From contig NZ_CP053708.1 in NCBI RefSeq assembly GCF_013201075.1, forward strand, positions 487,001 through 551,000: DNA of 64,000 nucleotides, given 5' to 3'. Every line of letters begins with the position of its first letter. Position 1 is the first letter of the stretch. The stretch comes from Lichenicola cladoniae (GTDB lineage: Bacteria; Pseudomonadota; Alphaproteobacteria; Acetobacterales; Acetobacteraceae). Positions 17,404 to 34,178 of the stretch are shown here, in pieces. Both the position numbers and the translations under genes were made by a program. The notes below the pieces were generated by a model. That model was given only the letters and a program-made list of their open reading frames with translations, had not been told where the DNA came from and searched no databases.

Positions 17404-18063
17404 TCAGCCCTCCGAGAAGGCCTGGGTCTTCTTCTTCAGGCTGTCTATCAGCGGAGTCGCATCACCGGTGCTGAAGCTGGATCCAAAGTCGGCACGCTGA
17501 ACCGCAACCTGGCTGATGTTACCGTTCAGTAGCACGTCCACCACCTGCCAACCCCCAGGACCTTGACGCATCACGTAATTGACATCGGTGGTGGAGCCAC
17601 TGGGCGACACGATACTCGTATGCACGATCTGGTCGCCGGCAATCGGCGAAGCGGTCGGGGTCGGGTCAACCTTGAAGACATCCGTCGAACCGGCGGCGAA
17701 GTTCGAGACGTAGCGTGCCACGGTGAACTGGCGGAACTGCTCCAGAAGCTGCTGCTTCTGCGTGTCCGGCAGGCTGCGGTAGCGCAGACCGAGCGAGTTC
17801 TGCAGCACGGTCTGTAGGTTAAAGACCTGGTCGACAACCGGCGCCAGGAGCTGCGCACGCTGCGAGAAAGCGGCTGTGGACCGCTCGGTCTGGGTAAGAC
17901 GCGCATACAGCGCCGTGACCGAAGCGACGGGCGAGCCGGGCTGGGAGGAAGCTCCAGAGCCGGCCTGCGTCGCCTGTGCGAGACTGCCGGACGAAAGGGT
18001 AGCCGTGCCTAGGAGTGCCAGGCACAGCCCTAATATGAGCTTGGATGAACGCATGCGTTTCAC
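17404..18063 (-). CDS. hpnM: HpnM, MlaC/Ttg2D-like hopanoid-associated protein
   Basis: The 219-residue protein has an N-terminal signal peptide ([23 protein letters not shown]) and a MlaC/Ttg2D fold pattern, with [18 protein letters not shown] and the C-terminal [18 protein letters not shown] segment. MlaC-type proteins carry phospholipids across the periplasm, and HpnM is the paralogue found in hopanoid clusters, presumably for lipid or hopanoid movement. The start is a GTG at 18063 whose GTGA overlaps the dxs stop; ATG 18054 is an alternative that shortens the n-region. Translation is therefore coupled to dxs. Confidence 0.88.
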
Positions 18064-20102: not shown

Positions 20103-20504
20103 TCGCGCCGGCTGCGTCGGGTTGGTCTTCGCCCCGCGATCCGGTCTGGTTACAAGCACCCACCCCATCGTCTGGTCCTGGGTCTGCTCTGTGCAGCACT
20201 CCTTAGAGCCAACATGATGGGTTCGACAGGGGCATCGATGCACCTGTGGCAGAAATACCATGGGTGGCGGGGCCATGAGATTGCTGCAGCAACCACTTTT
20301 GTCGTATAGGTATCGATCTATTCAATTCATTCACGTCACCAGAGCTGTCTTCCGTCCTGTTCTCGTACCCGTGATTGTTGGAGCTTCCGACCCATCTCCA
20401 TCATTCTCCAGTGTGTCCATGATGGATGCGCTGGCAACGAGGCCGTTCCCACGACCAGCAGATGACCCGGCTCGCGAGCCGGAGCTTTAGGAGAACACGT
20501 TCGC
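20103..20504. promoter_or_regulatory. Divergent dxs/hpnH promoter region
   Basis: About 400 bases separate dxs from hpnH and no gene is apparent. The central part (about 20280-20345) is clearly more AT-rich than its flanks. A plus-strand pair TTGCTG (20281) and TATAGG (20305) with an 18-base spacer could be a sigma-70 promoter for hpnH, but this is only a consensus match. The right end holds a perfect palindrome listed separately. Confidence 0.4.
20467..20482. promoter_or_regulatory. Perfect 16-bp palindrome upstream of hpnH
   Basis: CCGGCTCGCGAGCCGG is a perfect palindrome ending six bases before the AGGAGA ribosome site of hpnH (20489-20494). It could fold as a hairpin in the 5' untranslated RNA or serve as a protein-binding site. 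I do not recognise it as a known operator. Confidence 0.4.
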
Positions 20505-21659
20505 ATGGCCGTTCCGATCATGCAGGCTGTCCGAGTCGGCGCCTACGTCGTCAAGCAGCACCTCAAGCGCCGCCAGCGTTATCCGCTGGTGTTGATGCTC
20601 GAGCCGTTGTTCCGCTGCAATCTGGCATGCGCCGGCTGCGGCAAGATCGACTATCCGGCGCCGATCCTGAACCAACGCCTGACAGTGCAGGAGTGCCTGG
20701 ACGCCGATACCGAGTGCGGCGCTCCGGTGATCGCGGTCGCCGGTGGCGAGCCGCTGCTGCACAAGGAGATGCCGGAGATCATCGAGAAGCTCCTGGCACG
20801 CCGGAAGTATGTCTATCTCTGCACCAATGCGTTGCTGCTCGAGAAGAAGCTCGACGATTACAAGCCCAACCCGTTCTTTTCCTGGGACGTGCATCTGGAC
20901 GGCGACCAGGAGACGCATGACGCCTCCGTCTGCCAGGACGGGGTCTATGACCGGGCGGTCGCGGCGATCCGCAAGGCCAAGGAGCGTGGCTTCCGCGTCT
21001 CGATCAACTGCACCGTGTTCGACGGCGCCAAGCCGGAGCGGCTGGCGAAATTCTTCGACGATGTGATGGCCATGGGCGTGGACGGCATCATGACCGCGCC
21101 GGGCTATGCCTACGAGCGCGCACCGGACCAGGCCCACTTCCTGAACCGCCAGAAGACCAAGCAGCTGTTCCGCGACGTGTTCCGTCTCGGCAAGGGCAAG
21201 AAGTGGCGCTTCACCCAGTCGCCGCTGTTCCTGAACTTCCTGGCCGGTAACGAGACCTATCACTGCACCCCGTGGGGCAAGCCGCTCCGCAACGTGTTCG
21301 GCTGGCAGAAGCCCTGCTACCTGCTGGGCGAGGGCTATGCCGCGACCTTCAAGGAGCTGATGGAAGACACGGCCTGGGAGCAGTACGGCACCGGCAACTA
21401 CGAGAAGTGCGCCGACTGCATGGTGCATTCCGGCTACGAGTCGTCAGCAGTGATCGATGCGGTGAAGCGGCCGCTGCACATCCTGAAGGTGGCGCTCCGC
21501 GGGCCGCAGACCGAAGGCGAGATGGCGCCCGAGATCTCGCTCGAGAACCAGCGCCCGGCGACCTACAACTACACCGAGCACGTCGACTCCCGGATGAAGG
21601 AAATCGCTGCGAAGAAGGCCGCAACCCGCAAGGTCGTGGTCAACGAGCCGGCCGAGTAA
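20505..21659 (+). CDS. hpnH: Adenosyl-hopene transferase HpnH
   Basis: The 384-residue radical SAM enzyme adds the adenosyl group of SAM to diploptene, giving adenosylhopane, the first step in C35 hopanoid side-chain synthesis. The CxxxCxxC cluster ligands are C38, C42 and C45 in FRCNLACAGC. AVAGGEPLLH is the GGEP-like SAM motif, and the C-terminal SPASM-like DUF3463 part contains CADCMVHSGYE. An AGGAGA ribosome site precedes the ATG by ten bases. It is divergent from dxs-hpnMIJK and ends in a strong hairpin shared with the convergent dehydrogenase gene. Confidence 0.96.
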   Translation: MAVPIMQAVRVGAYVVKQHLKRRQRYPLVLMLEPLFRCNLACAGCGKIDYPAPILNQRLTVQECLDADTECGAPVIAVAGGEPLLHKEMPEIIEKLLARRKYVYLCTNALLLEKKLDDYKPNPFFSWDVHLDGDQETHDASVCQDGVYDRAVAAIRKAKERGFRVSINCTVFDGAKPERLAKFFDDVMAMGVDGIMTAPGYAYERAPDQAHFLNRQKTKQLFRDVFRLGKGKKWRFTQSPLFLNFLAGNETYHCTPWGKPLRNVFGWQKPCYLLGEGYAATFKELMEDTAWEQYGTGNYEKCADCMVHSGYESSAVIDAVKRPLHILKVALRGPQTEGEMAPEISLENQRPATYNYTEHVDSRMKEIAAKKAATRKVVVNEPAE

Positions 21660-21707: not shown

Positions 21708-22601
21708 TTATTTGGCAGCCTGGACGCCGCTCACCTGGGCGACGATGTCGGTCAGGGTCGGCACATAGCCATCGCCATGTCCCATCCCGACCGCCAGCGC
21801 GAAGCTGTTGCGCACCGCGGCGCTGACCGGGTTCGGGGTCGCCGAGGTTCCGGCGAAGCTCGCAAGGTAAGTCAGGTCCTTGAGCGCGTTCGACAGCGTG
21901 AACTTGTGCGCTTCCGGATTGCCACCGACCACGTATTCGAAGAACGTCTGGAAGAACAGGCAGTCCATCCTGCCGCCGCGGATGACGTCGTGGAACACCT
22001 GTGAGCTGACCCCGGCCTTTGCGCCGAGTGCCAGCGCTTCGGCGTAGAGCGACGCGTAGCCGAGAGAGACGAAGTTGTTCAGCAACTTCATCATGTGCGC
22101 GGTCCCGGTCGGCCCGGTCTCGACGATCCTGCCGGCGAAGGCCTCAAGCACCGGCCTCGCCCGGGCGACGTCCGCAGGATCCCCGCCCACCATCACGTCC
22201 AGCGTGCCGGCCCAGGCCTCCTTGGGGGTGCGGCTGAGTGGCGCGTCGATCAGGGTGATGCCGGCAGGCTTCAGGCTCTCGGCCAGGGCGGTGGTCACCG
22301 CCGGCTCGGAGGTCGAGCAGTCGATCACCAGCAGGGGCTTGCCCGCGGCTTCCAGCCCATCCGGACCCTGCACCAGTGCACGGACCTGCGGGCTGCCGGT
22401 GACGCACAGCACGACGATGTCGCTGGCCTCGCCGAGGGCGCGGGCGGAGGTGGCCTCGGTCGCCCCGCGTGCCAGCAGGTCCTCGACCGCATCGCGCTTG
22501 CGGTGCCCGAGCACGGTCAGGCCGAACCCCTTTTCGAGCAGGTTCTTGGCCATGCCGTGGCCCATCAGGCCGACGCCGGCGAAGCCGATTGTCTGTGTCA
22601 T
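21708..22601 (-). CDS. NAD(P)-dependent beta-hydroxyacid dehydrogenase (3-hydroxyisobutyrate dehydrogenase family)
   Basis: The 297-residue protein has an N-terminal Rossmann domain (GFAGVGLMGHGMAKNLLEKG, residues 6-25), the substrate loop DAPLSRTPKEAWAGTLDVMVGG near residue 118 and the catalytic lysine in HMMKLLNNF near residue 170. This is the architecture of HIBADH, tartronate semialdehyde reductase and L-threonate dehydrogenase. The usual DAPVSGG motif is changed to DAPLSRTP, which may reflect an unusual substrate. It lies 36 bases downstream of the lacI-type gene on the same strand and is probably in its operon, next to the sugar import and acid-sugar genes. The exact substrate is unknown. 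Confidence 0.82.
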   Translation of the reverse strand: MTQTIGFAGVGLMGHGMAKNLLEKGFGLTVLGHRKRDAVEDLLARGATEATSARALGEASDIVVLCVTGSPQVRALVQGPDGLEAAGKPLLVIDCSTSEPAVTTALAESLKPAGITLIDAPLSRTPKEAWAGTLDVMVGGDPADVARARPVLEAFAGRIVETGPTGTAHMMKLLNNFVSLGYASLYAEALALGAKAGVSSQVFHDVIRGGRMDCLFFQTFFEYVVGGNPEAHKFTLSNALKDLTYLASFAGTSATPNPVSAAVRNSFALAVGMGHGDGYVPTLTDIVAQVSGVQAAK

Positions 22602-22637
22602 GCGACTTGTTCTCCGATTCGGCCGCAGCCGGTTGGT

Positions 22638-23681
22638 TCAGGTGCTCTCGCGGATCGCCAGATGGCAGCCTACATCCACGCGGTCCGGTCCGGACGAGGT
22701 TCCCGCAACGCGGGCAAGCAGCTTGCGTGCCGCCGTCTCGCCGATCAGGCAGCGCGGTGAAACGATGGTTGTCAGCGACGGGCGGGTGAGGGCGCTGATG
22801 CCGAGCCCGTTGAAGCCGGCGATCGCGATCCGCCCGGGTACGGCGATACCGGCATGCGCCGCTCGCAGCAGCGCCCCGACCGCCAGGTCGTCATTGGCAA
22901 AGAACAGCGCATCGAGCTCCGGTGCCTGCGCCATGACCGCCAGCAACTGGTCGCCGCCGATCTCGGGACTGGAGCCGCCGGCAAAGGTGAAGGGGGGGCG
23001 GCGCTCCAGCCCGGCTGCGGCCAGCGCCCGGTCGAGCCCGCGGAAACGCTGCATCGCCCGATAATCACCGTCGAGCCAGCCGCCGACAAAGCCGATCCGC
23101 CTGTAGCCCCGGGCGATCAGGTGTTCCCCCATCATCGTGCCGGCCCTGGAATGCGACAAGCCGACATTCATGTCGATTGGCCGGGTGCCCAGCTCCATGA
23201 TTTCCACCACGGGCCGGCCGCAACCGCGCAGCAGCGCGCGTGTGCGTTCGGCGTGGCGCAGACCCGCGACGATGATACCGGCCGGAGACCAGCCGAGCAG
23301 GGTGGAGACAAGCGCCGTCTCGCGTTCGAGATCATACTGGGTGTTGCCCAGCAGCAGCTGGTACCCTTCCGCCTCCAGTATGGCCTGGATGCCCTCGATC
23401 ACCTCGATGAAGACCGCGTTCGACAGCGACGGCACGATGACCGGAATGATGCGGCTCTCCGCCGAGGCGAGGGCGCCGGCGAACCGGTTCGGGACGTAGC
23501 CCAGCTCGGCGACCGCCACGTCGATCAGCGCCCGGAGCGACGGGGATACGCTGTCCGGTGAATTGATCGCACGCGAAACAGTGATCGGGGCCACGCCGGC
23601 CCGTTCGGCCACGTCTTTCAGGGTCACTGCGCTGGTGCGGACGCGGCGGCGCAAGGGGATTGGCGGGTTCATGTCCGCCAA
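22638..23681 (-). CDS. LacI family transcriptional regulator
   Basis: The 347-residue protein has an N-terminal LacI helix-turn-helix (VTLKDVAERAGVAPITVSRAINSP at about residues 19-42), the hinge helix region RFAGALAS, and a periplasmic-binding-protein-like effector domain. Transcription is divergent from the ABC transporter. A 20-base near-perfect palindrome lies 55 bases upstream of its start, and a close copy lies before the otnC/ltnD genes at 31.1 kb. It is therefore the likely local repressor of the island, with a sugar or acid-sugar ligand. The effector is unknown; the ligand domain resembles the GntR/IdnR gluconate-type branch only in general terms. Confidence 0.88.
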   Translation of the reverse strand: MADMNPPIPLRRRVRTSAVTLKDVAERAGVAPITVSRAINSPDSVSPSLRALIDVAVAELGYVPNRFAGALASAESRIIPVIVPSLSNAVFIEVIEGIQAILEAEGYQLLLGNTQYDLERETALVSTLLGWSPAGIIVAGLRHAERTRALLRGCGRPVVEIMELGTRPIDMNVGLSHSRAGTMMGEHLIARGYRRIGFVGGWLDGDYRAMQRFRGLDRALAAAGLERRPPFTFAGGSSPEIGGDQLLAVMAQAPELDALFFANDDLAVGALLRAAHAGIAVPGRIAIAGFNGLGISALTRPSLTTIVSPRCLIGETAARKLLARVAGTSSGPDRVDVGCHLAIREST

Positions 23682-23735
23682 TCCTACAAGCGCACGCGCC
23701 CGGCCGCCACCGCTGGTATGCGACGGTGATTAATT

Positions 23736-23755
23736 GAATGGTTGCGCTACCATTC
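23736..23755. promoter_or_regulatory. Putative LacI-family operator 1
   Basis: GAATGGTTGCGCTACCATTC is an inverted repeat with nine of ten base pairs matched and a central CG, the typical form of LacI-family operators. It lies between the divergent regulator (start 23681) and the ABC ATPase (start 23859). Its core recurs in reverse complement at 31113-31128. Confidence 0.75.
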
Positions 23756-23858
23756 GCGGCGTGATTATGGTTGCCCCGAAGGATGCCGGTGTTTGTCGTG
23801 AATACGCGACGGGCGAGAAGCAAGCCGCACACAGGAAGATCTCTAGGAGCACCGCGCA

Positions 23859-25415
23859 ATGTCGCGACAGTCGAGCGAGCGTGGGCAGGCCGTGACCGGT
23901 CATTACCGGGCGAGCGATATCACCAAGAGCTATGGCAGCGTTTCGGTTCTGCGCGGGATCAGCGTGTCGCTCGAACCCGGTCGTATCCATACGATGATGG
24001 GCGAGAACGGCGCCGGCAAATCCACCCTGTTCAAGGTGATGTCGGGGATCGTGCGTCCGAATACCGGCAGGCTCACGCTCGACGATCGGTCGATCGCCTT
24101 CGCGTCGCCGCACGAGGCGCATGCGCACGGGATTTACCTGGTGCCCCAGGAGCCGGCGCTGATGCCGGAGCTCAGCGTCGCCGAAACCATGTTCGTTGGC
24201 CAGCTGCCGACCACGGGCAAGCTGGTGCGGCGCGTCGACTGGACCACGATGAAGATGCGGGCCCGGGCCGCGCTGGATACGTTGGGGCTCGACATCGCCG
24301 TGGATGCGCCCGCCCGGCTGCTGTCGATCGCCCAGCAGCAACAGGTGGAGTGCGCGAAGGCACTGCTGCGCGGCTGCCGGGTGATCCTGTTCGACGAACC
24401 GACCTCGCCGCTGACCACGCACGAGGTGCAGCATCTGTTCGCGACGATGCGTCGGTTGCGCGACGAAGGCTACACGCTCGCCTTCATCAGCCACCGCATG
24501 GACGAGGTTCTGGAGATATCCGACGATATCAGCGTGCTGCGCGACGGAGTTCTGGTCGACAGCGTTCGGCACGAGCAGTTCGACCGCACCAGGTTGCTGT
24601 CGCAGATGGTCGGCCGTGAAATGCGCACGATCCCCCGTCGCTCGTGGTCGTGTGCCACCGACCAGCCAGCCCTGACGGTCTCGAACCTGGGCCGGGCCGG
24701 AACTTTCAGCGACGTCAGCTTCACCCTGCATCGTGGCGAAATTCTGGGTCTGGCCGGACTTGTCGGCGCCGGGCGGACCGAGATCGCCGAAGCGATCTTT
24801 GCGTTGCGCCCGCACGATTCCGGTACCGTAACGCTGAACGGCGAGATGATTTCCGACCTTCCGACCGACGAGATCATCCGCAAGGGTCTGGTGTATGCAC
24901 CGGAGGATCGCGCACGCCATGGCGCGATCCTGCAGATGACCATCGCCGAGAACGTCACGTCCGGCCTGATCGAGCGGGTGCGTCACCGCTTGGGCCTGAT
25001 GGATCGAGCCGACGAGGACAGGATCGGCGCCGATACGGTGCAGCGTTATCGCGTACGCTGTGCCGGCACGGACCAGACCCTGCGTCAGCTTTCCGGTGGT
25101 AACCAGCAGAAGGTCGTGTTCGGGAAATGGATGGGCCTGTCGCCGACGGTGGCGATCCTCGACGAACCGACCCGCGGCGTCGATGTCGGCGCCAAGGAAG
25201 AGATCTACGAACTCATCGAGTCCCTGGCGAAGGACGGCATCGCGATCCTGGTCATATCGTCCGAGATGGAGGAACTGGTGCGTCTCTGCGACCGGATCGT
25301 TTCGGTCTATGAGGGCCGCATCGTCGCCGAGTTGAGTGGTGATGCGATCACGCCCGAGCGCGTCGCACGCTCCTATCTCAGTCACGCGGGCGATGTGCAG
25401 GACATCGCCGCATGA
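23859..25415 (+). CDS. Sugar ABC transporter ATP-binding protein, two-domain (RbsA/XylG type)
   Basis: The 518-residue protein has two fused ABC domains. The first has Walker A GENGAGKST (about residues 49-57), signature LLSIAQQQQ and Walker B RVILFDEPTSPLT. The second has a degenerate Walker A (GLVGAGRTE), signature LSGGNQQK and Walker B TVAILDEPTRGVD. A degenerate second P-loop is normal for RbsA-like proteins. It energises import of a monosaccharide or related compound through the two permeases that follow, overlapping the first by four bases. Expression is probably controlled by operator 1 upstream. Confidence 0.93.
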   Translation: MSRQSSERGQAVTGHYRASDITKSYGSVSVLRGISVSLEPGRIHTMMGENGAGKSTLFKVMSGIVRPNTGRLTLDDRSIAFASPHEAHAHGIYLVPQEPALMPELSVAETMFVGQLPTTGKLVRRVDWTTMKMRARAALDTLGLDIAVDAPARLLSIAQQQQVECAKALLRGCRVILFDEPTSPLTTHEVQHLFATMRRLRDEGYTLAFISHRMDEVLEISDDISVLRDGVLVDSVRHEQFDRTRLLSQMVGREMRTIPRRSWSCATDQPALTVSNLGRAGTFSDVSFTLHRGEILGLAGLVGAGRTEIAEAIFALRPHDSGTVTLNGEMISDLPTDEIIRKGLVYAPEDRARHGAILQMTIAENVTSGLIERVRHRLGLMDRADEDRIGADTVQRYRVRCAGTDQTLRQLSGGNQQKVVFGKWMGLSPTVAILDEPTRGVDVGAKEEIYELIESLAKDGIAILVISSEMEELVRLCDRIVSVYEGRIVAELSGDAITPERVARSYLSHAGDVQDIAA

Positions 25416-26443
25416 ACGCCCCGCTTCTATCCCAATCGGTAACGCAACCGGGGGCGTTGCAAGGCGTGCCCGTTGTCCAGCGCTCCCGGGTTGCCGCCAG
25501 CGCGGGGCGCGATGTTCGCTCGATCGCACTCGCTGCCGTGACGATCGCGACCGTGCTGCTGGTCGGCGCGTTCAACCACGGGTTCATGTCGCTGCAAAAC
25601 CTGCACTTCATGCTGCTGAACTGCGTCGTTCTGTCCTTGTTGGCACTGGGCCAGACCCTGGTCATCGCCACCCGCGGCATCGACCTCTCCGTGGCGCCGG
25701 TACTCGGACTTACCGCCATGGTGACCGGGCTCATGGCGCAGGGCGGCGGATTGCCGCTTGCCGGCGCGTTCGGCATTGCTCTTGCGATCGGGCTGGTGCT
25801 GGGCACCATCAACGGCCTTCTGGTCGCGAAGCTCGCAATCCCGCCGATCATCACCACGCTCGGCACCTACAGCCTCTATAGCGGCCTGATTTTCCTGTAT
25901 TCGAACGGGACCCAGGTCGACTCCGTGCCGCACGCCTATGCCACGCTCGGCAACGGCGTCGTTTCCGACGTGCTGCCATTGCCGATCCCGGTGCTGGTGC
26001 TGGCTGTCGTGTTGCTGCTGGTCTGGTTCGTCCTCGGCCATACCAGGTTCGGACGCGCTATCCTGGCGATCGGCAACAACCAGGCCGCGGCCTACAATGC
26101 CGGTATTCCGGTCACCGCGACCCAAGTCGGCGCCTATACGGCGTCCGGTGTTCTGGCAGCCCTCGCCGGCCTGATGTTCCTGTCCTACACCGGCTCCGCC
26201 ACCGTCACGACCGGCACCGGCGATCATATGGAACTGCAATCCATCGCCGTTGCGCTGATCGGCGGTACCGCCATCGCCGGAGGCCGCGGCAATGCGCTCG
26301 GTGCCGTTCTCGGTGCCCTGTTCCTGAGCGTGATCCTGACTGCCCTGGTCTTCGTTCATGTTCCGCCGATCTGGTACTCGGCGGGGGAAGGGCTGATGAT
26401 TCTCGTCGCGGTCACCGCCGGCGCCAAGAGGGTTGCACGATGA
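25412..26443 (+). CDS. Sugar ABC transporter permease 1 (ribose/AI-2 type)
   Basis: The 343-residue membrane protein shows about nine to ten hydrophobic helices, the FMLLNCVVLSLLALGQTLVIATRGIDLSVAPVLGL segment typical of RbsC-family permeases, and the conserved IGGTAIAGGRG loop that contacts the ATPase. The ATG overlaps the ATPase stop (ATGA), and its own stop overlaps the next permease start. Having two different permeases is typical of the LsrCD-like subgroup. Confidence 0.9.
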   Translation: MNAPLLSQSVTQPGALQGVPVVQRSRVAASAGRDVRSIALAAVTIATVLLVGAFNHGFMSLQNLHFMLLNCVVLSLLALGQTLVIATRGIDLSVAPVLGLTAMVTGLMAQGGGLPLAGAFGIALAIGLVLGTINGLLVAKLAIPPIITTLGTYSLYSGLIFLYSNGTQVDSVPHAYATLGNGVVSDVLPLPIPVLVLAVVLLLVWFVLGHTRFGRAILAIGNNQAAAYNAGIPVTATQVGAYTASGVLAALAGLMFLSYTGSATVTTGTGDHMELQSIAVALIGGTAIAGGRGNALGAVLGALFLSVILTALVFVHVPPIWYSAGEGLMILVAVTAGAKRVAR

Positions 26444-27477
26444 CCGGCGCCAACGAGGTTACCGCCGCGCGCGGCAAGACCAGCCGCTTCCCGCTCGGCA
26501 CCTGGGAACGATCCCTGCTGTTGCTGCTGCTGTTCCTGACAGTCGGACTGATTGCGGGCGTGCCTGGGTTCTATCCGGGTTTTGCCGGCTTCCTGGCGCT
26601 GTCCGAGAACTTCCTGCCCTTCGGTCTGGTGGCGCTCGGCCTCACCACCGTCATCCTGACCGGGGGCATTGACCTGTCGGTCGGCGCGACCGCCGGCCTC
26701 TCGGCAATCGTCATGGCCGAGCTATGGAGCGGGCTGCACATCTCGATCTGGCTGGCGGCTCTCGTGGGCGTCATCGCCGGCGGACTGCTCGGCCTAGTCA
26801 ACGGCCTGATCATCACCCGCCTGCGGACGGAGCCGCTGATCGCCACCCTGGCGACCAGCTTCATCTACGGCAGCATCGCCACGGCGCTCGCCGGCGACAC
26901 GCCGCCCTCCGGTTTCCCGGACAGCTTCAACCGCCTCGGCACCGGCGCCTTCGGCGACATCGTGCCGTTCCAGATCCTGCTGTTCGCGGTTGCAGCGTTG
27001 CTGTTCTCGCTGCTGATCTCGCGCTCTATCTTCGGCCGGAAGATCATCATGATCGGGTACAACGTGGAGGCCGCACGATATTCCGGCATCCGCGTGGACC
27101 GCATCGTGACGTCCGCCTATGTCATCAGCGGCGTGATGGCCGGCCTCGCCGGCATCGTGCTGGCTGCCTACTACAGCGCGGTTCGTCCCGACATGGGCGA
27201 CCTGCTGCTGCTCAGCACCATCACCATCGTCGTGCTCGGCGGCGTCAGCATCTTCGGTGGCGACGGGACCATCTCGGGCGTGGTCATCGCCGTTCTGCTG
27301 CTCGGCGTCCTGCGCCAGGGCATGCTGATCGCCGGCTTCTCCGACATGGTCACCACCATGCTCACCGGCGCGATCCTGCTGGCCGCGATCGCCATCAAGA
27401 ACGTGTTTGCCGGGCGCGGCGGCTTTCTCCCGATGCTGCTTGCCCGGTTCCGGCCGGGCACGGTCTCGTCAAACTGA
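26440..27477 (+). CDS. Sugar ABC transporter permease 2 (ribose/AI-2 type)
   Basis: The 345-residue RbsC-family membrane protein pairs with permease 1. LVALGLTTVILTGGIDLSVGATAGLSAIVMAEL near residue 65 is the family signature, and VVLGGVSIFGGDGTISG near residue 265 is the coupling loop. It overlaps permease 1 by four bases. The binding protein gene follows 39 bases later. Confidence 0.9.
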   Translation: MTGANEVTAARGKTSRFPLGTWERSLLLLLLFLTVGLIAGVPGFYPGFAGFLALSENFLPFGLVALGLTTVILTGGIDLSVGATAGLSAIVMAELWSGLHISIWLAALVGVIAGGLLGLVNGLIITRLRTEPLIATLATSFIYGSIATALAGDTPPSGFPDSFNRLGTGAFGDIVPFQILLFAVAALLFSLLISRSIFGRKIIMIGYNVEAARYSGIRVDRIVTSAYVISGVMAGLAGIVLAAYYSAVRPDMGDLLLLSTITIVVLGGVSIFGGDGTISGVVIAVLLLGVLRQGMLIAGFSDMVTTMLTGAILLAAIAIKNVFAGRGGFLPMLLARFRPGTVSSN

Positions 27478-27516
27478 CTCAACCATAAACAAACAATGGA
27501 AACGGATATCAACATC

Positions 27517-28530
27517 ATGGCTCATACAGAACGTCGGACGTCCACGCTCCGTGCAGCTCTCGCGGCACTGCCGCTGATGCTCGCGGCCGGGCTCACCGCC
27601 CAGGCCGCCGACATCGACACCTCGAAGCGCATCAAGGTCGCGATGGTGCCGAAGCTGGTCGGGCTATCGGTGTTCAAGGCGAACCAGCAGGGTGCTGAAA
27701 CTGCCGCAAAGGCACTCAATATCGACTTCCTGTACACCGGTCCGGTCACCGCCTCGGCGCAGGGCCAGGTCGACGTGTTCAACAGCCTGATCGCCCGTCG
27801 CTTCAACGCCATCACCACCACGTCGAACAACCCGACCCAGCTGGCACCGGCACTGCGCCGCGCGCGCAAGCAGGGCATCAAAGTCGTCTCCTACGACAGC
27901 GACGTTGCGGCCGATGCCCGCGACTTCTTTATCCAGAACACCGACTATGCCGCCTTCGGCAAGGCGCTGGTCGAATCGGTCGCGAAATATGCAGGGCCGA
28001 CCGCGAAGGTGGCCATCCTGTCCTCGACGCCCGATGCCACGATCCAGAACGAATGGATCAACGCGCTCAAGAAATACATGACCGCGACCTACCCCAAGAT
28101 GCAGATTGTCACCACCCAATATGGCCAGTCGAGCCCGTCGCAATCCCTGACGGCCGGCCTGAACATTCTGCAGGCCAACGCCGATGTGACAGGCATCATC
28201 GCCCCGGACGGCGCCGCCGAGGTGGGTGCCGCGGCCGCGGTCGAGAAACTGGGCCGCACCGGCAAGGTGTTCGTGACTGGCTGCAGCGATCCGAACGCGA
28301 TCCGTCAGTACGTGAAGTCCGGGATCATCAAGGAAAGCCCGTTGTGGGATGAGGTCAAGGAAGGCGAACTGGTCATGTATGTTGCCCGCCTGGCCGTCAA
28401 CAACGCGATCCAGCGCAACGGCGACTTCACCGCCGGCGATCTCGGCTCGTTCACGGCAAAGGATGGCGTCATCGTGTTTAGCGAACCGCTGATCTTCAAT
28501 GCCGCAAATATCGATCAGTATCAGTTCTGA
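27517..28530 (+). CDS. Periplasmic sugar-binding protein (LsrB/RhaS-like)
   Basis: The 337-residue protein has a signal peptide (TLRAALAALPLMLAAGLTAQA, cleaved before AD at about residue 31). The mature part is a type I periplasmic binding fold (VAMVPKLVGLSVFKANQQGA, VVSYDSDVAADARDFFIQNTD, GIIAPDGAAEVGAAAAVEKLG). It resembles LsrB and RhaS. No AI-2 processing genes (lsrK, lsrF, lsrG) are present, so a sugar or polyol ligand is more likely than AI-2. An in-frame ATG at 27496 would lengthen the n-region by seven residues. Confidence 0.9.
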   Translation: MAHTERRTSTLRAALAALPLMLAAGLTAQAADIDTSKRIKVAMVPKLVGLSVFKANQQGAETAAKALNIDFLYTGPVTASAQGQVDVFNSLIARRFNAITTTSNNPTQLAPALRRARKQGIKVVSYDSDVAADARDFFIQNTDYAAFGKALVESVAKYAGPTAKVAILSSTPDATIQNEWINALKKYMTATYPKMQIVTTQYGQSSPSQSLTAGLNILQANADVTGIIAPDGAAEVGAAAAVEKLGRTGKVFVTGCSDPNAIRQYVKSGIIKESPLWDEVKEGELVMYVARLAVNNAIQRNGDFTAGDLGSFTAKDGVIVFSEPLIFNAANIDQYQF

Positions 28531-28550
28531 AAAATCGGAGATTTGAGAGC

Positions 28551-29447
28551 ATGAAGCGCATTCTGTTTACCGGCGGCAGCGGCAAGGCCGGTCGTCATGT
28601 GGTTGAGTACCTGATCGACCAGGGCTACGAGGTGTTGAATATCGACACCAAGCCGCTGAACCACCCGAAGGTGCGGACACTGATCGCCGACATTACCGAT
28701 GCCGGTCAAGTCTTCAACGCGTTCTCGGCCTACACCGGCCTGCACGAGTTCGACCTGGACCTGAGCCCGCCGCATATCGACGCGGTGGTGCACTTCGCCG
28801 CCATCCCGCGGATCATGATCGTGCCGGACAACGAGGTCTATCGCGTCAACGTGATGGGCACCTACAACGTGCTCGACGCGGCCACCAAGCTCGGCATCAA
28901 GAAGGTGATTATCGCGTCCAGCGAAACCACCTACGGCATCGTGTTCGCGCACGGCCATCGCGATCCGGAATATTTTCCGCTCGACGAGGATTACCCCGTC
29001 AAGCCGATGGACAGCTACGCCACGTCCAAGATCTGCAACGAGCGCACCGCGGAGGCGTTCGCGCTGCGTACCAGAACCGACATCTATGCGCTGCGGATCG
29101 GCAACGTGGTGGAGCCCAGCGAATATGCCCTGTTCCCGGGCTGGTTCGCCAAGCCGGAATTCCGCAAGCGTATCGCCTGGAGCTACATCGATGCGCGGGA
29201 CCTTGGCGAGTTGGTCAAGCTCGGCATCGAGACCGATGGGCTCGGCTACCAGGTGTTCAACGCGGTGAACGACCACTCGTCGTCCGACCTGCCGACCGCC
29301 GAGCTGGTTCGTCGCTACTATCCCAACGTGCCGGTTAAGGGCGAGATGGGCGAGTTCGAGAGCCTGCTGTCGAACAAGAAGGCCAAGGCGATGCTCGGCT
29401 TCCGCGAGAATCACAACTGGCGCTCCTATGTGAAGACCGAAGGCTGA
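28551..29447 (+). CDS. NAD-dependent epimerase/dehydrogenase (extended SDR), possibly DenD-like
   Basis: The 298-residue protein has the SDR nucleotide motif TGGSGKAG at residues 7-14, the catalytic Ser in IIASSETTYG and the YATSK (YxxxK) motif near residue 155. It belongs to the extended SDR family with uronate dehydrogenase and D-erythronate dehydrogenase (DenD). Given OtnI/OtnK/OtnC homologues nearby, oxidation of an aldonic acid or sugar lactone is a reasonable guess. An epimerase role cannot be excluded. It follows the binding protein by 20 bases and precedes the racemase-like gene, so it is part of the transporter operon. Confidence 0.75.
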   Translation: MKRILFTGGSGKAGRHVVEYLIDQGYEVLNIDTKPLNHPKVRTLIADITDAGQVFNAFSAYTGLHEFDLDLSPPHIDAVVHFAAIPRIMIVPDNEVYRVNVMGTYNVLDAATKLGIKKVIIASSETTYGIVFAHGHRDPEYFPLDEDYPVKPMDSYATSKICNERTAEAFALRTRTDIYALRIGNVVEPSEYALFPGWFAKPEFRKRIAWSYIDARDLGELVKLGIETDGLGYQVFNAVNDHSSSDLPTAELVRRYYPNVPVKGEMGEFESLLSNKKAKAMLGFRENHNWRSYVKTEG

Positions 29448-29478
29448 CCCGGCCGAAACGAGCGTGAAGGATACCATC

Positions 29479-30171
29479 ATGCAGAAGCAGCAGATCGTGG
29501 TCGCGGTACATACCGGGCCGGTGACAGTCGCACCGTTGAACGCGCTGGCGCCGGAACTCATCCCGGGCGTCCGGCTGGTCAATCTCGTGGATGACAGCCT
29601 GCTTAAGGACACCATGGCGGCCGGACAGGTAACGCCGGCCGTGATCCGGCGGCTGGCCCAGTACATGACGATCGGGCAGGAGATGGGGGCCGACATGATC
29701 CTCAACTGCTGCTCCTCCGTTGGCGAAGCGGCGGAAGTGGCGGCGCAGCTGCTCGACATCCCGATGCTCAAGATCGACGTCGCGATGGCCGAGGAAGCCG
29801 TGCGGCGCGCCACGCGCATCGGTGTTGCCGCGACGGTGCAGACGACGCTCGATCCGACCGCGCGCCTGATCGAGCAGACCGCCCGGGCTTCCGGCAAGGA
29901 GCTGCAGGTGACGAAGCGGCTCTGTGTCGGTGCGTTCGATGCGCTCCTGGCTGGAAACACCGCCGAGCATGATGCCATCGTGTCGCGCGAGCTGGTGAGC
30001 CTGGCCAGCGAGGTCGACCTGATCGTGCTGGCGCAGGTGTCGATGGGACGGGTCGCGGACTCACTCGGCGACGCGGTTGCCTGTCCGGTGCTGACCAGCC
30101 CGCGTCTCGGAATGGAACGGTTGGCTAAACATCTGGCGCAGCTGGGCGAGCCGGTGCGTACGGCGGCCTGA
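29479..30171 (+). CDS. Aspartate/glutamate racemase-like protein, second cysteine absent
   Basis: The 230-residue protein has the Asp/Glu/hydantoin racemase fold pattern: VAVHTGPVTVAPLN at the N-terminus and the first active-site cysteine in LNCCSSVGEAAE. Family racemases use a second cysteine in an LGC-like motif in the C-terminal half. The matching segment here reads LIVLAQVSMGRV and has none, so proton transfer on both faces is unlikely and another chemistry is plausible (isomerase, lyase or hydrolase). ATG 29479 is preceded by AAGGA at the right distance; the frame also has a GTG at 29464. It is the last gene of the transporter operon. Confidence 0.68.
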   Translation: MQKQQIVVAVHTGPVTVAPLNALAPELIPGVRLVNLVDDSLLKDTMAAGQVTPAVIRRLAQYMTIGQEMGADMILNCCSSVGEAAEVAAQLLDIPMLKIDVAMAEEAVRRATRIGVAATVQTTLDPTARLIEQTARASGKELQVTKRLCVGAFDALLAGNTAEHDAIVSRELVSLASEVDLIVLAQVSMGRVADSLGDAVACPVLTSPRLGMERLAKHLAQLGEPVRTAA

Positions 30172-30351
30172 TCCATCGGGCCTGGTTGTCGTTCCTGTCG
30201 GTTCGTCAGCCGGGTCCTGTTCCGCGTTGATGATCGTGTGCTCCGTCCCTGATGGCAGCGACGAGCCTGGAACGCTGCAGCAGCTCCCGCACTCGTGCGG
30301 GTGTCAGCAAACAAGGGTTAGCACGGCATCGAGATCGATGGGTTCACCTAC

Positions 30352-30381
30352 GCCAGGCGGAGTATAACCACCCCGCCTGGC
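30352..30381. terminator. Hairpin between convergent racemase-like and aldolase genes
   Basis: GCCAGGCGG pairs with CCGCCTGGC across a 12-base loop, giving a perfect 9-bp stem in the 229-base convergent intergenic gap. There is no U-run. It may terminate both operons. Nothing else is recognisable in the gap. Confidence 0.45.
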
Positions 30382-30400
30382 AGCCTGATCGAACCGCGTT

Positions 30401-31036
30401 TCACAGCTTGAAGTGATCCACCAGATCCTCGACCTGTTCCTGCGACAACAGGCGCGGGTTCAGGCCACGGAGCAGGAGATAAAGGCGGGCGGTTTCTTCC
30501 AGCTCCTCGATCGAGTTGATGGCGGCCTGCAACGTCCGGCCGGCCACCACCGGCCCATGATTGGCCAGCAATACCGCAGTGTGCTTGCCATGCAGGTTCC
30601 GGATCGCATCCGCCACCGCCGGGTCGCCGGGTCGGTAATACGGGATCAGGGCGGTATGGCCGACGCGCATCACCGAATAGGCGGTGAGCGGGGGCAGTAC
30701 CGAATGCGGATCGATTTCCGGCAGCATCGACACAGCCACCGAATGCGTCGAGTGCAGATGGACAATGGCGCCCGCTCCGTTCCGGGTTTCGTAGAGCGCC
30801 TGATGCAGCGGCAGTTCCTTGGTCGGCTTGTCGCCGGACAGCACATGCCCGGCCGCATCGAGCCGGGTCAGCCGGGCCGGGTCCAGGAAGCCCAGGGAAC
30901 TATCGGTCGGCGTCGTCAGGAAACCACCATCCTCCAGCCGGATGCTGACGTTGCCCGAGGATCCCGAAGTCAGTCCGCGCTCGAACAGCGATCGGGAAAA
31001 CAGGCAGATCTGATCACGCAACTTTGTTTCGCTCAT
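30401..31036 (-). CDS. otnC: Class II aldolase/adducin family protein, OtnC-like
   Basis: The 211-residue class II aldolase-like protein has the zinc-binding HLHSTHS motif near residue 93 and a later NHGPVV histidine near residue 160. SGSSGNVSIR near residue 25 is the phosphate-binding GNxS motif. In threonate and erythronate catabolism, OtnC decarboxylates 3-oxo-tetronate 4-phosphate to dihydroxyacetone phosphate. The OtnC call depends on the neighbouring ltnD, otnI and otnK homologues. A fuculose- or ribulose-phosphate aldolase role is the main alternative. It is divergent from ltnD, with putative operator 2 between them. Confidence 0.8.
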   Translation of the reverse strand: MSETKLRDQICLFSRSLFERGLTSGSSGNVSIRLEDGGFLTTPTDSSLGFLDPARLTRLDAAGHVLSGDKPTKELPLHQALYETRNGAGAIVHLHSTHSVAVSMLPEIDPHSVLPPLTAYSVMRVGHTALIPYYRPGDPAVADAIRNLHGKHTAVLLANHGPVVAGRTLQAAINSIEELEETARLYLLLRGLNPRLLSQEQVEDLVDHFKL

Positions 31037-31112
31037 CGAAATTCTACCCAGCTTTTACATCGCCCCGTTGAAACAGCTCTTTATCATGCGGCCGATACAC
31101 GGCATCCTGGCA

Positions 31113-31128
31113 ATGGTAGCGCAACCAT
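31113..31128. promoter_or_regulatory. Putative LacI-family operator 2
   Basis: ATGGTAGCGCAACCAT is the exact reverse complement of the 16-base core of operator 1. It lies between the divergent otnC (start 31036) and ltnD (start 31156). This links the catabolic enzymes to the LacI-type regulator at 22.6-23.7 kb. It sits only 28 bases before the ltnD start. Confidence 0.75.
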
Positions 31129-31155
31129 GCAAGGCGTTCCACCTCAGGAGGAAAC

Positions 31156-32076
31156 ATGACGGACGGGAACGCGAACACGACCCTGCGTTGCGCGGTCATC
31201 GGGCTCGGCTCGATGGGCGGTGGGATGGCTGCGTCGCTGATGAGGGCGGGTTTCGAGGTCTCCGGCTACGACGTGAACCAGGATGCCTGCACACGTCTCG
31301 CGGCCGAGGGCGCCAGGATCGGTGCCACGCCGGCCGATGCCGCCGCCGGCGCCGACTGTGTCATCGCCGTGGTGGTCAATGCCGACCAGACCGAGACGGT
31401 GTTGTTCGGCCCGGATGGATGTGCCGCCACCATGAAGCCGGGCGGCGTATTCGTGTCGTCGGCGACCATGGCGCCGGAACGCGCGCGTGCGTTCGCCGCA
31501 CGTCTCGAGGCGACCGGCCGGCATTATCTCGATGCGCCGATGAGCGGCGGCGCCGCGCGGGCAGCGGATGGCCAGCTGACCATGCTGGCCTCGGGCAGCA
31601 AGGCAGCGTTCGACGCCGCCAGGCCAGCCCTGCAGGCGATGACCGGGACATTGTACGAGCTCGGCGACGAGGCCGGGCTCGGCGCCGCATTCAAGATGGT
31701 CAACCAGCTCCTGGCTGGCGTGCATATCGCCGCCGCCTGCGAGGCGATCGCGTTCGCAGCCCACCAGGGTCTCGACCTGCGCCGGGTTTATGAGGTGATC
31801 ACCAAGTCGGCCGGCAATAGCTGGATGTTCGAGAACCGGGTCCCGCACGTGCTCGATGGCGACTACACGCCGCGCAGTGCGGTCAACATCTTCACGAAGG
31901 ATCTCGGGATCGTCCTCGACATGGCCAGGGCCGGCCAGTTTCCGGTTCCGGTGGCCGGTGCGGCGCTGCAGATGTACCTGATGACCGCGGCCGCCGGGAT
32001 GGGCAAGGACGACGATGCCTCGGTTGCCCGCCTCTACGCACAGATATCCGGATTGTCGTTGCCCCAGCCTGTTTAA
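31156..32076 (+). CDS. ltnD: NAD-dependent dehydrogenase, L-threonate dehydrogenase (LtnD)-like
   Basis: The 306-residue beta-hydroxyacid dehydrogenase has a Rossmann GLGSMGGGMAASL motif (residues 16-28), the substrate motif DAPMSGGAARAADGQL near residue 129 and the catalytic lysine in FKMVNQLLAG near residue 178. LtnD oxidises L-threonate to 2-oxo-tetronate, which OtnI, OtnK and OtnC convert to dihydroxyacetone phosphate. The related D-apionate oxidoisomerase and tartronate semialdehyde reductase are alternatives. A strong AGGAGG ribosome site (31145-31150) fixes the start. It is the first gene of the ltnD-otnI-otnK operon. Confidence 0.85.
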   Translation: MTDGNANTTLRCAVIGLGSMGGGMAASLMRAGFEVSGYDVNQDACTRLAAEGARIGATPADAAAGADCVIAVVVNADQTETVLFGPDGCAATMKPGGVFVSSATMAPERARAFAARLEATGRHYLDAPMSGGAARAADGQLTMLASGSKAAFDAARPALQAMTGTLYELGDEAGLGAAFKMVNQLLAGVHIAAACEAIAFAAHQGLDLRRVYEVITKSAGNSWMFENRVPHVLDGDYTPRSAVNIFTKDLGIVLDMARAGQFPVPVAGAALQMYLMTAAAGMGKDDDASVARLYAQISGLSLPQPV

Positions 32077-32085
32077 GGACACGCC

Positions 32086-32889
32086 ATGCCACGCTTTGCC
32101 GCCAACCTGACGATGATGTTCAACGAGGTGCCGTTCGCCGACCGCTTCGACGCGGCAGCCGCTGCCGGGTTCACCGCCGTCGAGTGCCTGTTCCCCTACG
32201 CGCTCGAGCCCGGAGCCGTGGCCAAGCGGCTGCAGCGCAACGGCCTGGAAATCGCGCTGTTCAACATGCCGCCCGGCGACTGGGACGCGGGCGACCGGGG
32301 ATTTGCCGCTCTCCCGGCACGCGCCTCCGAACTCGACGCGGCACTGGCCACCACCTTGCGTTATGCCGAGGCGACCGGTGTTCGCCGGGTGCATCTGATG
32401 GCCGGCATTGCCGACCGGTCGGACGAGGCGGCGCTACGTGCCTATCGCGATGCCGTCCGGCGCTGTGCCGATGCGCTCGGCGGACACGGGCTCGACCTGG
32501 TTCTGGAGCCGATCAACGGGCGCGACATGCCCGGATATTTCCTAAACGATTTCGAGTGGACCGCCAATTTCATCAACGCGATGAGCGTGTCCAACGTGAA
32601 GCTGCAGTTCGACCTCTATCACCGCCAGATCCTGCATGGCGACGCGACGATGGCGCTGCGGCGGATGCTGCCGATGATCGGCCATATCCAGATCGCCAGC
32701 GTCCCGTCGCGCAACGAGCCCGACGGCGAGGAACTGAACTTCCCGTTCCTGTTCGAGGAGCTCGACCGGCTCGGCTATGACGGCTTCGTCGGCTGCGAGT
32801 ACCGCCCGCGCGCCGGGACGCAGGATGGCCTCGGCTGGTTCGCGCCCTATGCCGGCCGCCGCCACGCCGAGGAAGGAACGCGCTCGTGA
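32086..32889 (+). CDS. otnI: Hydroxypyruvate isomerase family protein, 2-oxo-tetronate isomerase (OtnI)-like
   Basis: The 267-residue TIM-barrel protein starts MPRFAANLTMMFNEVPF and contains VECLFPYAL, LEPINGRDMPGYFL and FDLYHRQILHGD, all hallmarks of the Hyi/OtnI family. OtnI interconverts 2-oxo- and 3-oxo-tetronate. Glu and His metal ligands are visible in VLEPIN and GHIQIAS. The gene starts nine bases after ltnD, and its stop overlaps the GTG of otnK. A genuine hydroxypyruvate isomerase is possible, but the neighbours favour OtnI. Confidence 0.88.
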   Translation: MPRFAANLTMMFNEVPFADRFDAAAAAGFTAVECLFPYALEPGAVAKRLQRNGLEIALFNMPPGDWDAGDRGFAALPARASELDAALATTLRYAEATGVRRVHLMAGIADRSDEAALRAYRDAVRRCADALGGHGLDLVLEPINGRDMPGYFLNDFEWTANFINAMSVSNVKLQFDLYHRQILHGDATMALRRMLPMIGHIQIASVPSRNEPDGEELNFPFLFEELDRLGYDGFVGCEYRPRAGTQDGLGWFAPYAGRRHAEEGTRS

Positions 32890-34178
32890 GCATTCGCCTC
32901 GGTTGTATCGCCGACGATTATACCGGCGCCTCGGACCTCGCCAACATGCTGCGGCAGAACGGGCTGCGCACGGTGCAGACCATCGGCGTGCCGAGACCGT
33001 CGCTGGAGCTTCCGGATGTCGATGCCGTGGTGGTGTCGCTGAAGAGCCGCTCGATCGCAGCCGATCGCGCGGTTACGCTGTCGCTCGAGGCGGAGACATG
33101 GCTGCGTGACCGGGGTGCCGAGCATGTGCTGTTCAAGATCTGCTCGACGTTCGACTCGACCGACGAGGGCAATATCGGACCGGTGATCGACGCCCTGCGG
33201 GAGCGTGCCGGCGGTGCCACGGTGCTGGTCAACCCGGCCTTTCCGGAAACCGGCCGTAGCGTGTTCGAGGGATACCTGTTCGTGAACGGGGTGCCGCTGC
33301 ACGAGAGCCCGCTCAAGGATCATCCGCTCAACCCGATGCGCGATTCCAACCTGGTGCGGGTGCTCGGCAGGCAGAGCGCCACCCCGGTCGCACTGATCCC
33401 GTTCGCCGTCGTCGAGCAGGGGGTCGAGGCCGTACGCGAAGCGCTCGCGAAGGCCCGGACGGCGGGTGCGGGTGCAGCGATCGCCGATGCGGTTGCGGCC
33501 CGCCATCTCGACGTGCTGGGACAGGCGGCACTCAGCGGCCCGGTTTCAGCCGGCGCCTCCGGCCTCGGAGCCGGGCTGGCCCGGGCGCTGGTTGCTCGCG
33601 ACGGTCCGTCCGGACCGGCTCAACCCAGCGATGCCACGCGCCCCCGTCCGACATCCGGCCGTGCCGCGATCCTTGCCGGCAGCTGCTCGACTGCGACCCG
33701 GCAGCAGATCGCGGTCGCCGAAACATCCGGCATCGCCTGTCTGCGCCTCGACGTCGCCCGCATGCTCGACTCCGGCATCGATCAGGTCGTGTCGGACGCG
33801 CTGGACTGGGCACGCGCCAGGATCGAGCTGGGGCCGGTGCTCATCGCCAGCAGCGACCACCCGGATGCGGTAAAGGCGATGCAGAGCAGCCATGGCGGTC
33901 TGGCGGTCGGCCATGTGGTCGAGCAGGCGCTCGCCGCGATTGCCGAGGGTCTGGTGGCGGCCGGCGTCGATCAGCTGGTGATCGCCGGCGGCGAGACGTC
34001 CGGTGCGGTGGTGGACCGGCTCGGCCTCGAGGCATTCCTGGTCGGAGAAGAAATCGCGCCCGGCGTGCCGGTGTTGCGGGTCACCGGCGCCCAACATGCC
34101 GATCTGTCGATGGCGCTCAAATCGGGCAACTTCGGTGGCGAGCAATTCTTTACGCGTGCGTTGTCGATGCTCGGGTAG
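32886..34178 (+). CDS. otnK: Four-carbon acid sugar kinase family protein, 3-oxo-tetronate kinase (OtnK)-like
   Basis: The 430-residue DUF1537-family kinase has an N-terminal substrate domain beginning LGCIADDYTGASDLANML and a C-terminal nucleotide domain with LVIAGGETSGAVVDRLG near residue 365. VLVNPAFPETGRSVFEGYLFVNG in the middle is the family's conserved sugar-acid site. OtnK phosphorylates 3-oxo-tetronate at C4. The start is a GTG at 32886 overlapping the otnI stop (GTGA). It ends the ltnD-otnI-otnK operon. Kinase family is firm; the tetronate substrate is inferred from context. Confidence 0.88.
   Translation: MSIRLGCIADDYTGASDLANMLRQNGLRTVQTIGVPRPSLELPDVDAVVVSLKSRSIAADRAVTLSLEAETWLRDRGAEHVLFKICSTFDSTDEGNIGPVIDALRERAGGATVLVNPAFPETGRSVFEGYLFVNGVPLHESPLKDHPLNPMRDSNLVRVLGRQSATPVALIPFAVVEQGVEAVREALAKARTAGAGAAIADAVAARHLDVLGQAALSGPVSAGASGLGAGLARALVARDGPSGPAQPSDATRPRPTSGRAAILAGSCSTATRQQIAVAETSGIACLRLDVARMLDSGIDQVVSDALDWARARIELGPVLIASSDHPDAVKAMQSSHGGLAVGHVVEQALAAIAEGLVAAGVDQLVIAGGETSGAVVDRLGLEAFLVGEEIAPGVPVLRVTGAQHADLSMALKSGNFGGEQFFTRALSMLG

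Follow-up and report, generated by a model that had tools for sequence, protein, structure and literature searches.

Which compound feeds the island of twelve open reading frames (ORFs) at 21708–34178 of a 64 000-nucleotide stretch of the Lichenicola cladoniae genome (NZ_CP053708.1, positions 487 001–551 000; hereafter the window)? The island joins enzymes of tetronate catabolism to an ATP-binding cassette (ABC) importer of the CUT2 family, an extended short-chain dehydrogenase/reductase (SDR), a single-cysteine protein of the Asp/Glu racemase fold (hereafter the racemase-like protein), a second beta-hydroxyacid dehydrogenase (bHAD2) and a LacI-family regulator. Comparison of sequences leads us to a tentative answer, held somewhat short of even confidence: the island may be a LacI-controlled regulon for an imported neutral four-carbon (C4) sugar or lactone, which would be oxidised to a tetronate. 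The last four steps of such a route are known; its front end would employ two recurring enzymes of putative function, the SDR and the racemase-like protein. A preliminary description of the same DNA had named or implied eleven of the twelve genes, all of which the ORF list and NCBIfam/Pfam profile matches place where it put them; it omitted the regulator and two operators (Table 1).

The lower part of the pathway is the firmest. LtnD, OtnI, OtnK and OtnC all exceed their curated NCBIfam equivalog cut-offs, so that the tetronate core previously proposed is borne out at the equivalog level. By family-level identity, LtnD–OtnI–OtnK–OtnC is the published four-step route from L-threonate to dihydroxyacetone phosphate (DHAP) (Zhang et al. 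2016, as cited in PMC12540250; this paper and PMC10580937 are cited here from excerpts of their text), L-threonate being a major plant ascorbate breakdown product (PMC12540250). Beyond these four enzymes the island has a LacI-family regulator with its pair of operators, a CUT2 importer, a single-cysteine PF01177 protein and an SDR distinct from DenD. A known tetronate system with a major facilitator superfamily (MFS) importer and a DeoR-type regulator likewise shares this core with the island and, should bHAD2 take the part of DenD, both acid branches as well, whereas the island has an ABC importer, a LacI-type regulator, the SDR and the racemase-like protein. A three-step variant employs 2-OtnK and 2-OtnC, the latter with a fructose-bisphosphate (FBP)-type aldolase domain (Guo et al. 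2024, as cited in PMC12540250); the island is instead of the four-step form, with OtnI and an aldolase-II-type OtnC, and likeness to the variant is limited to the DUF1537 kinase and FBP-type aldolase of a Deinococcus taeanensis relative described below. The island OtnI is the only match over cut-off in the whole genome, which holds four DUF1537 matches. A second 3-oxo-tetronate kinase (548 bits) lies at 8.6–14 kb of locus L054 (G000:C2:260500-280400), accompanied by another relative of the racemase-like protein (28–32% identity); the run of genes around them, read by eye, encodes an MFS transporter, an amidohydrolase and a dehydrogenase of tartrate/isopropylmalate type, and is bordered on one side by transposition-type genes.

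A shared operator apparently unites the island genes in one jointly controlled LacI regulon, the regulator presumably binding at both copies. Along the + strand the genes run bHAD2 (−), regulator (−), importer ATPase, permease, permease, binding protein, SDR, racemase-like gene, OtnC (−), LtnD, OtnI and OtnK. Two forward operons are likely from the intergenic distances, which are −4, −4, 18, 20 and 16 bp in the run that starts with the ATPase and ends with the racemase-like gene, and 9 and −4 bp between LtnD, OtnI and OtnK; 119 bp separates the divergent OtnC and LtnD. The operator, ATGGTTGCGCTACCAT, is a 16-bp near-palindrome of LacI type that stands between the regulator gene and the divergent importer operon, and its exact reverse complement stands between OtnC and LtnD, which gives a predicted palindromic site at both presumed controlled promoters, as expected of a LacI-family regulon. 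At up to three mismatches these are the only two sites in the window (four strand matches, against a chance mean of 0.45; none of 100 shuffles reaches four), and the 6.06-Mb genome contains no other exact copy. A third operator-like site with one mismatch, at G000:C2:17732, precedes a signalling kinase (by eye) with a transposase-like gene near, and has no evident link to the island.

Table 1. Features of the island, with positions in the window and the profile evidence for each
Feature	Position	Strand	Evidence
bHAD2, beta-hydroxyacid dehydrogenase, probable D-erythronate dehydrogenase stand-in	21708..22601	-	PF03446/PF14833
LacI-family regulator (GntR/IdnR-like)	22638..23681	-	best model NF052440 (HTH-type regulator GntR) 368 bits, cut-off 400
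Operator 1, ATGGTTGCGCTACCAT (predicted)	23738..23753		regulator/importer intergenic region
CUT2 importer ATPase	23859..25415	+	NCBIfam matches, none of the listed models passed
Importer permease 1 (LsrC-like)	25412..26443	+	NCBIfam matches, none of the listed models passed
Importer permease 2 (LsrD-like)	26440..27477	+	NCBIfam matches, none of the listed models passed
Periplasmic binding protein, LsrB/RhaS-like	27496..28530	+	RhaS 232 bits, LsrB 230 bits, both below cut-off
Extended SDR dehydrogenase, proposed aldose 1-dehydrogenase	28551..29447	+	PF01370
Single-cysteine PF01177 (Asp/Glu racemase-fold) protein	29464..30171	+	PF01177 49 bits
OtnC	30401..31036	-	NF043034 320 bits, cut-off 250
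Operator 2, exact reverse complement of operator 1 (predicted)	31113..31128		between divergent OtnC and LtnD
LtnD, L-threonate dehydrogenase	31156..32076	+	NF043037 445 bits, cut-off 350
OtnI, 2-oxo-tetronate isomerase	32086..32889	+	NF043033 354 bits, cut-off 325
OtnK, 3-oxo-tetronate kinase (DUF1537 family)	32886..34178	+	NF043035 526 bits, cut-off 350; PF07005, PF17042

The same set of genes recurs in other genomes. A species-genome scan for relatives of the racemase-like protein gave 155 pattern matches and 118 relatives, of which the best 80 were kept, and their neighbours were scored by tblastn (E 1e-10) in at most 10 kb of fetched DNA on each side (for 14 of the 80, less than 12 kb in all). 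The SDR, racemase-like gene, OtnC, LtnD, OtnK, binding protein and ATPase stand in the same order in six of these loci (L072–L077), all with the regulator gene: two congeners (contigs of genomes G004 and G001), a proteobacterial metagenome-assembled genome (MAG; L074, with no OtnI match) and three Luteibacter. Such window-type islands thus span Alpha- and Gammaproteobacteria, and a Rhodanobacter MAG (L147) agrees with them as far as it is present, its contig ending at 3 kb. All were found by SDR or racemase search, and islands with neither gene would escape. In relatives, too, the operator was sought at up to three mismatches. It occurs at both places in congener G001 (zero and one mismatch) and near both in all three Luteibacter (one to three), while in G004 and L074 an exact copy precedes the importer and no second site was found at that tolerance.

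Elsewhere the parts are assembled differently. Two Burkholderiales loci, L080 (Pararobbsia, which also carries DenD) and L093, combine the SDR and racemase-like gene with a different CUT2 importer and with LtnD, OtnI, OtnC and a DUF1537 kinase. A Ciceribacter plasmid has a new order (regulator, SDR, other importer type, racemase-like gene, OtnI, LtnD, DUF1537 kinase, OtnC, bHAD2), with an operator at two mismatches before the racemase-like gene; Rhizobium tumorigenes has bHAD2, OtnC, OtnK, LtnD, OtnI, the other importer, the SDR and a LacI-family gene, with no racemase match, and its only operator site (three mismatches) falls within the LacI-family gene. For the other importer type, the Caballeronia binding protein is 28% identical to that of the window over 198 residues. 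In another phylum, on a D. taeanensis plasmid (L064, 6.3–15.8 kb), the window-type importer (61–79%), SDR (68%) and racemase-like gene (69%) occur with an FBP-type aldolase of class II and a DUF1537 kinase unlike that of the window. Importers and kinases are therefore exchanged between loci, and the SDR is the constant part. Across the 80 racemase loci, the SDR is found in 24 (each time within 6 kb), a DUF1537 kinase in 35 and an FBP-type aldolase in 21; 22 have none of the three. The earlier view is right that the island carries genes beyond those required for tetronate use; since these extras travel with the core, a precursor funnelled into the tetronate route remains the best reading.

The importer gives a broad indication of the substrate. 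Nearest to the binding protein among solved chains are mostly LsrB proteins, and its matches take in proteins named for rhamnose, xylose, allose, ribose and autoinducer 2 (AI-2); profile results for the ATPase refer to the best 25 of 190 matches. AI-2, the ligand of LsrB-type importers, is furanose-like. That an importer of this quorum signal adjoins a tetronate operon by chance would account for a binding protein and permeases near Lsr components, and four of the six LsrB residues that we take to be its AI-2 contacts are kept. The other two are changed (Asp166 to Ile, Ala222 to Gly), the LsrA, LsrB, LsrC and LsrD models all fall below cut-off, LsrK, LsrF and LsrG have no match among those listed for the twelve ORFs, and the operator links the importer to the tetronate genes. 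We therefore rejected AI-2 uptake, on the Lsr scores and the changed contacts, and consider such a chance arrangement very improbable.

The SDR, of 298 aa, would be the entry enzyme. Uronate dehydrogenases are among its PDB sequence matches; the extended SDR family includes uronate dehydrogenase, which makes a lactone, and an extended SDR is unlikely to be a polyol dehydrogenase. Genes of SMP-30/gluconolactonase type lie near the SDR in L065 and in four of the 24 racemase loci with the SDR (L065, L081, L082, L092 and L106), as would be expected if it makes a lactone. Among 47 loci whose SDR is at least 50% identical (window included; L072 and L073, duplicates of L045/L044, and L154, a duplicate of L158, are dropped), a CUT2 ATPase lies within 7 kb in 33, and all 33 are among the 38 with at least 62% identity. 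Because 27 of the 47 were fetched through the racemase-like protein, a racemase count in this set would be circular; of the 19 fetched through the SDR, ten reach 62% identity, and these have the importer in seven cases and LtnD in four, with no importer in the other nine. The SDR matches were fetched in part (10 of 14 places, four further places from the class scan and seven of 116 plasmid records). At E 1e-90 the class scan of 385 genomes finds the SDR in six, one of them the window's. Around the SDR relatives in L047, L049, L152, L155, L156, L172 and L173 no sugar-acid theme was seen; those in L048 and L050 lie near enolase-family and sulfatase genes (by eye).

DenD is itself an extended SDR, which leads to the most serious alternative, though one that we hold to be doubtful: tetronates themselves are imported, the SDR is a further tetronate dehydrogenase analogous to DenD, the racemase-like protein interconverts epimers, and there is no sugar precursor. 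The DenD model (NF043036) does match the SDR, weakly and over residues 3–186, and the D. taeanensis cluster of importer, SDR, racemase-like gene, kinase and aldolase, in whose run no other dehydrogenase is annotated, would then be complete. The three-step 2-OtnK/2-OtnC variant likewise has an FBP-type aldolase domain, in its 2-OtnC (PMC12540250). Yet that match reaches 26 bits against a cut-off of 325, on which we rejected the SDR as DenD, and in the G004 island DenD and the SDR occur together, so that they are not simple substitutes. The tetronate importer named in PMC10580937 is, moreover, an MFS protein, and the host's own DenD also stands beside an MFS-like gene (by eye).

The racemase-like protein matches PF01177 and no NCBIfam model. 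Its AlphaFold2 (AF2) model is confident (predicted local distance difference test (pLDDT) 94), and its best Foldseek matches are glutamate racemases, followed by aspartate and hydantoin racemases (E 5e-9 and weaker); nearly all of the 50 matches listed are glutamate, aspartate, allantoin or hydantoin racemases, with query template modelling (TM) scores of 0.54–0.76 and 11–19% identity. The protein thus has the fold of the PF01177 racemases, but one of their two catalytic cysteines: aligned by hhalign to a MurI-type protein (E 0.004, probability only 8.5%, register as expected), Cys83 falls on the first and Gln191 on the second. Among the 71 of 80 loci that pass the filter for a full ORF, every relative keeps the first cysteine, and the second is replaced by the Gln of an AQxSM motif (70 by pattern, and L116 by eye as FAQASM). 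With the second cysteine lost, a two-base racemase mechanism is unlikely, and a one-base epimerase, a tautomerase or another reaction may be considered. In Firmicutes loci, examined by eye, the gene accompanies phosphotransferase system (PTS)-like genes, FBP-type aldolases and DUF1537 kinases in several cases and lacks them in others, so its role is wider than the island. In three loci (L113, L132 and L151) its neighbours, read by eye, include FBP-type aldolases and PTS-like genes; DUF1537 kinases join them in L113 and L151, and L113 adds genes resembling those for RpiB and glycerol dehydrogenase. This is perhaps another undescribed sugar pathway.

bHAD2 had been counted among the unexplained extras, a view that comparison with the congeners does not support. 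Its best NCBIfam models, both for 2-hydroxy-3-oxopropionate reductase, give 163 and 162 bits where 341 and 397 are required. In G004, DenD (362 bits, cut-off 325) adjoins the regulator, where the window and G001 carry bHAD2; we therefore read bHAD2 as probably a stand-in for DenD in the D-erythronate branch, the position in this one congener supporting a role and not family membership, and rejected it as an extra. It is present in the islands of G001, Ciceribacter and R. tumorigenes (56%). The loop that reads DAPMSGGA in the window LtnD reads DAPLSRTP in four of six bHAD2 proteins, the window's among them, and DAPLGKTP and DAPLGGTP in one each. The three Luteibacter islands have neither DenD nor a bHAD2 of close kinship: at E 1e-60 none of the three genomes yields a DenD, and their bHAD2 relatives do not exceed 33% identity. 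The L074 genome has both enzymes, outside the 20.7 kb fetched. With the D-erythronate branch optional and LtnD constant in window-type islands, the substrate may well belong to the threo-series. A true DenD is found elsewhere in the host genome (G000:C1:3315983-3316945, 381.7 bits), at 8.5–10.9 kb of locus L169 (G000:C1:3306000-3325900) together with the MFS-like gene mentioned above, far from the genome's only OtnI; the island may therefore also serve D-erythronate imported that way.

Put together, these parts suggest a scheme in which the reactions of the SDR, bHAD2 and the racemase-like protein are proposed from family and context. The C4 compound brought in by the CUT2 importer would be neutral and furanose-like, most likely an aldotetrose of threose or erythrose type or its lactone, and the SDR would oxidise it at C1 to a tetronate or tetronolactone. 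LtnD would convert L-threonate, and bHAD2 (DenD in the congener) D-erythronate, to 2-oxo-tetronate, OtnI would isomerise this to 3-oxo-tetronate, OtnK would phosphorylate it and OtnC would decarboxylate the product to DHAP. The racemase-like protein would probably shift a proton at an acidic carbon of a C4 intermediate (e.g. C2 of 3-oxo-tetronate or of a lactone), opening both stereo-series. We favor a neutral C4 compound because of the LsrB/RhaS-type importer, the extended SDR, the SMP-30-type neighbours and the lack of any carbon-shortening enzyme besides OtnC. A branched or longer sugar (apiose, a pentose or its acid) or a tetritol that is converted to a tetronate would also suit the breadth of the binding-protein family, and the preliminary description had suggested such precursors, but we judge this improbable. 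Longer acids are disfavored because they need a step that cleaves a carbon–carbon bond, and the twelve ORFs include no dehydratase and no aldolase-type protein besides OtnC. The apionate pathway was rejected on its kinase: OiaK shares the DUF1537 family, and OtnK scores 526 bits as 3-oxo-tetronate kinase and 128 against an OiaK cut-off of 700.

For the neutral C4 reading we count the equivalog core, the operator pair, the gaps of −4 to +20 bp, the recurring set, its re-assembly with another importer and the exchange of DenD for bHAD2. Several observations weigh against it. The predicted model of the SDR is poor (mean pLDDT 68), so its pocket is not readable, and none of the nine fetched loci with SDR relatives below 62% identity has a CUT2 ATPase within 7 kb. 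In the 24.7 kb of D. taeanensis DNA read, LtnD was not found, and the SDR may there be the acid dehydrogenase itself. For 16 of the 24 racemase loci with the SDR, the fetched DNA has no match to LtnD, OtnI or DUF1537, and the operator was not found in L046, L080, L093 or L064. Two of four congeners lack the SDR and racemase-like gene, and in G020, of the same family, OtnC, DenD, OtnI, a DUF1537 kinase and LtnD stand together (L176) with no importer, SDR or racemase-like match in the 20 kb read.

The last two cases fit ordinary use of L-threonate and D-erythronate beside genes that arrived by chance, as does the sufficiency of the four core genes in published pathways (PMC12540250). We find this quite unlikely, and rejected a passenger origin of the extras, in view of the shared operator, the order conserved in two classes and the re-assembly with another importer. 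Absence of the extras from close relatives, earlier named as what would refute an added pathway, thus has a divided outcome: two congeners and G020 do lack them, whereas both congeners with a window-type island, and Luteibacter, keep the importer, SDR and racemase-like gene. As for the 16 loci without core genes nearby, LtnD is over cut-off elsewhere in all 16 genomes (15 Burkholderiales and one Rhodanobacter MAG) compared with 34 of 80 in a family control (two genomes, G419 and G431, belong to either set); small genomes abound in the control, and of its 33 genomes of at least 6.0 Mb LtnD is found in 25, so the 16 of 16 adds little. Among 60 genomes akin to the window's (this one included), LtnD exceeds its cut-off in six of the eight that have an SDR of at least 54% identity and in 16 of the other 52 (p = 0.023 by a one-sided Fisher test that ignores relatedness).

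In a literature search that left subscription journals mostly outside, no paper among the matches listed treats this gene set or tetrose catabolism via tetronate enzymes, and no dedicated bacterial route for free tetroses was seen there. Of the titles listed, those concerned with tetronate catabolism were PMC12540250 and PMC10580937. Taken at its fullest, the scheme would be an undescribed, horizontally spread pathway for free aldotetroses, served by its own ABC importer and by a new dehydrogenase acting at C1. The racemase-like protein would then stand for a new enzyme class on the Asp/Glu racemase fold, an epimerase or tautomerase that works on C4 sugar acids with a single cysteine and no cofactor, and that is found again near DUF1537 kinases and aldolases in Firmicutes, Deinococcus and Proteobacteria. 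We put this combination forward as speculative. bHAD2 is predicted to be a D-erythronate dehydrogenase that is not orthologous to DenD. The SDR (298 aa) and the single-cysteine protein, both members of orphan families, are now placed in a definite C4 setting, and the recurring set of parts, the genome-unique operator pair and the Luteibacter islands make the substrate directly testable.

Two further contexts deserve mention. Upstream of the island lies an hpnH gene (550 bits), adjoined by an ORF resembling 1-deoxy-xylulose-5-phosphate synthase (by eye), so that isoprenoid/hopanoid genes (18060–21659) flank the island. In Caballeronia (L065, 14.8–16.5 kb), the cluster of SDR, importer and racemase-like gene stands beside a methylthioribose kinase, an isomerase and a class II aldolase, a salvage set of DHAP-shunt type; all three are annotated in L065, and the same place in L078, L079, L081, L085–L087, L089 and L098 showed the aldolase match alone.

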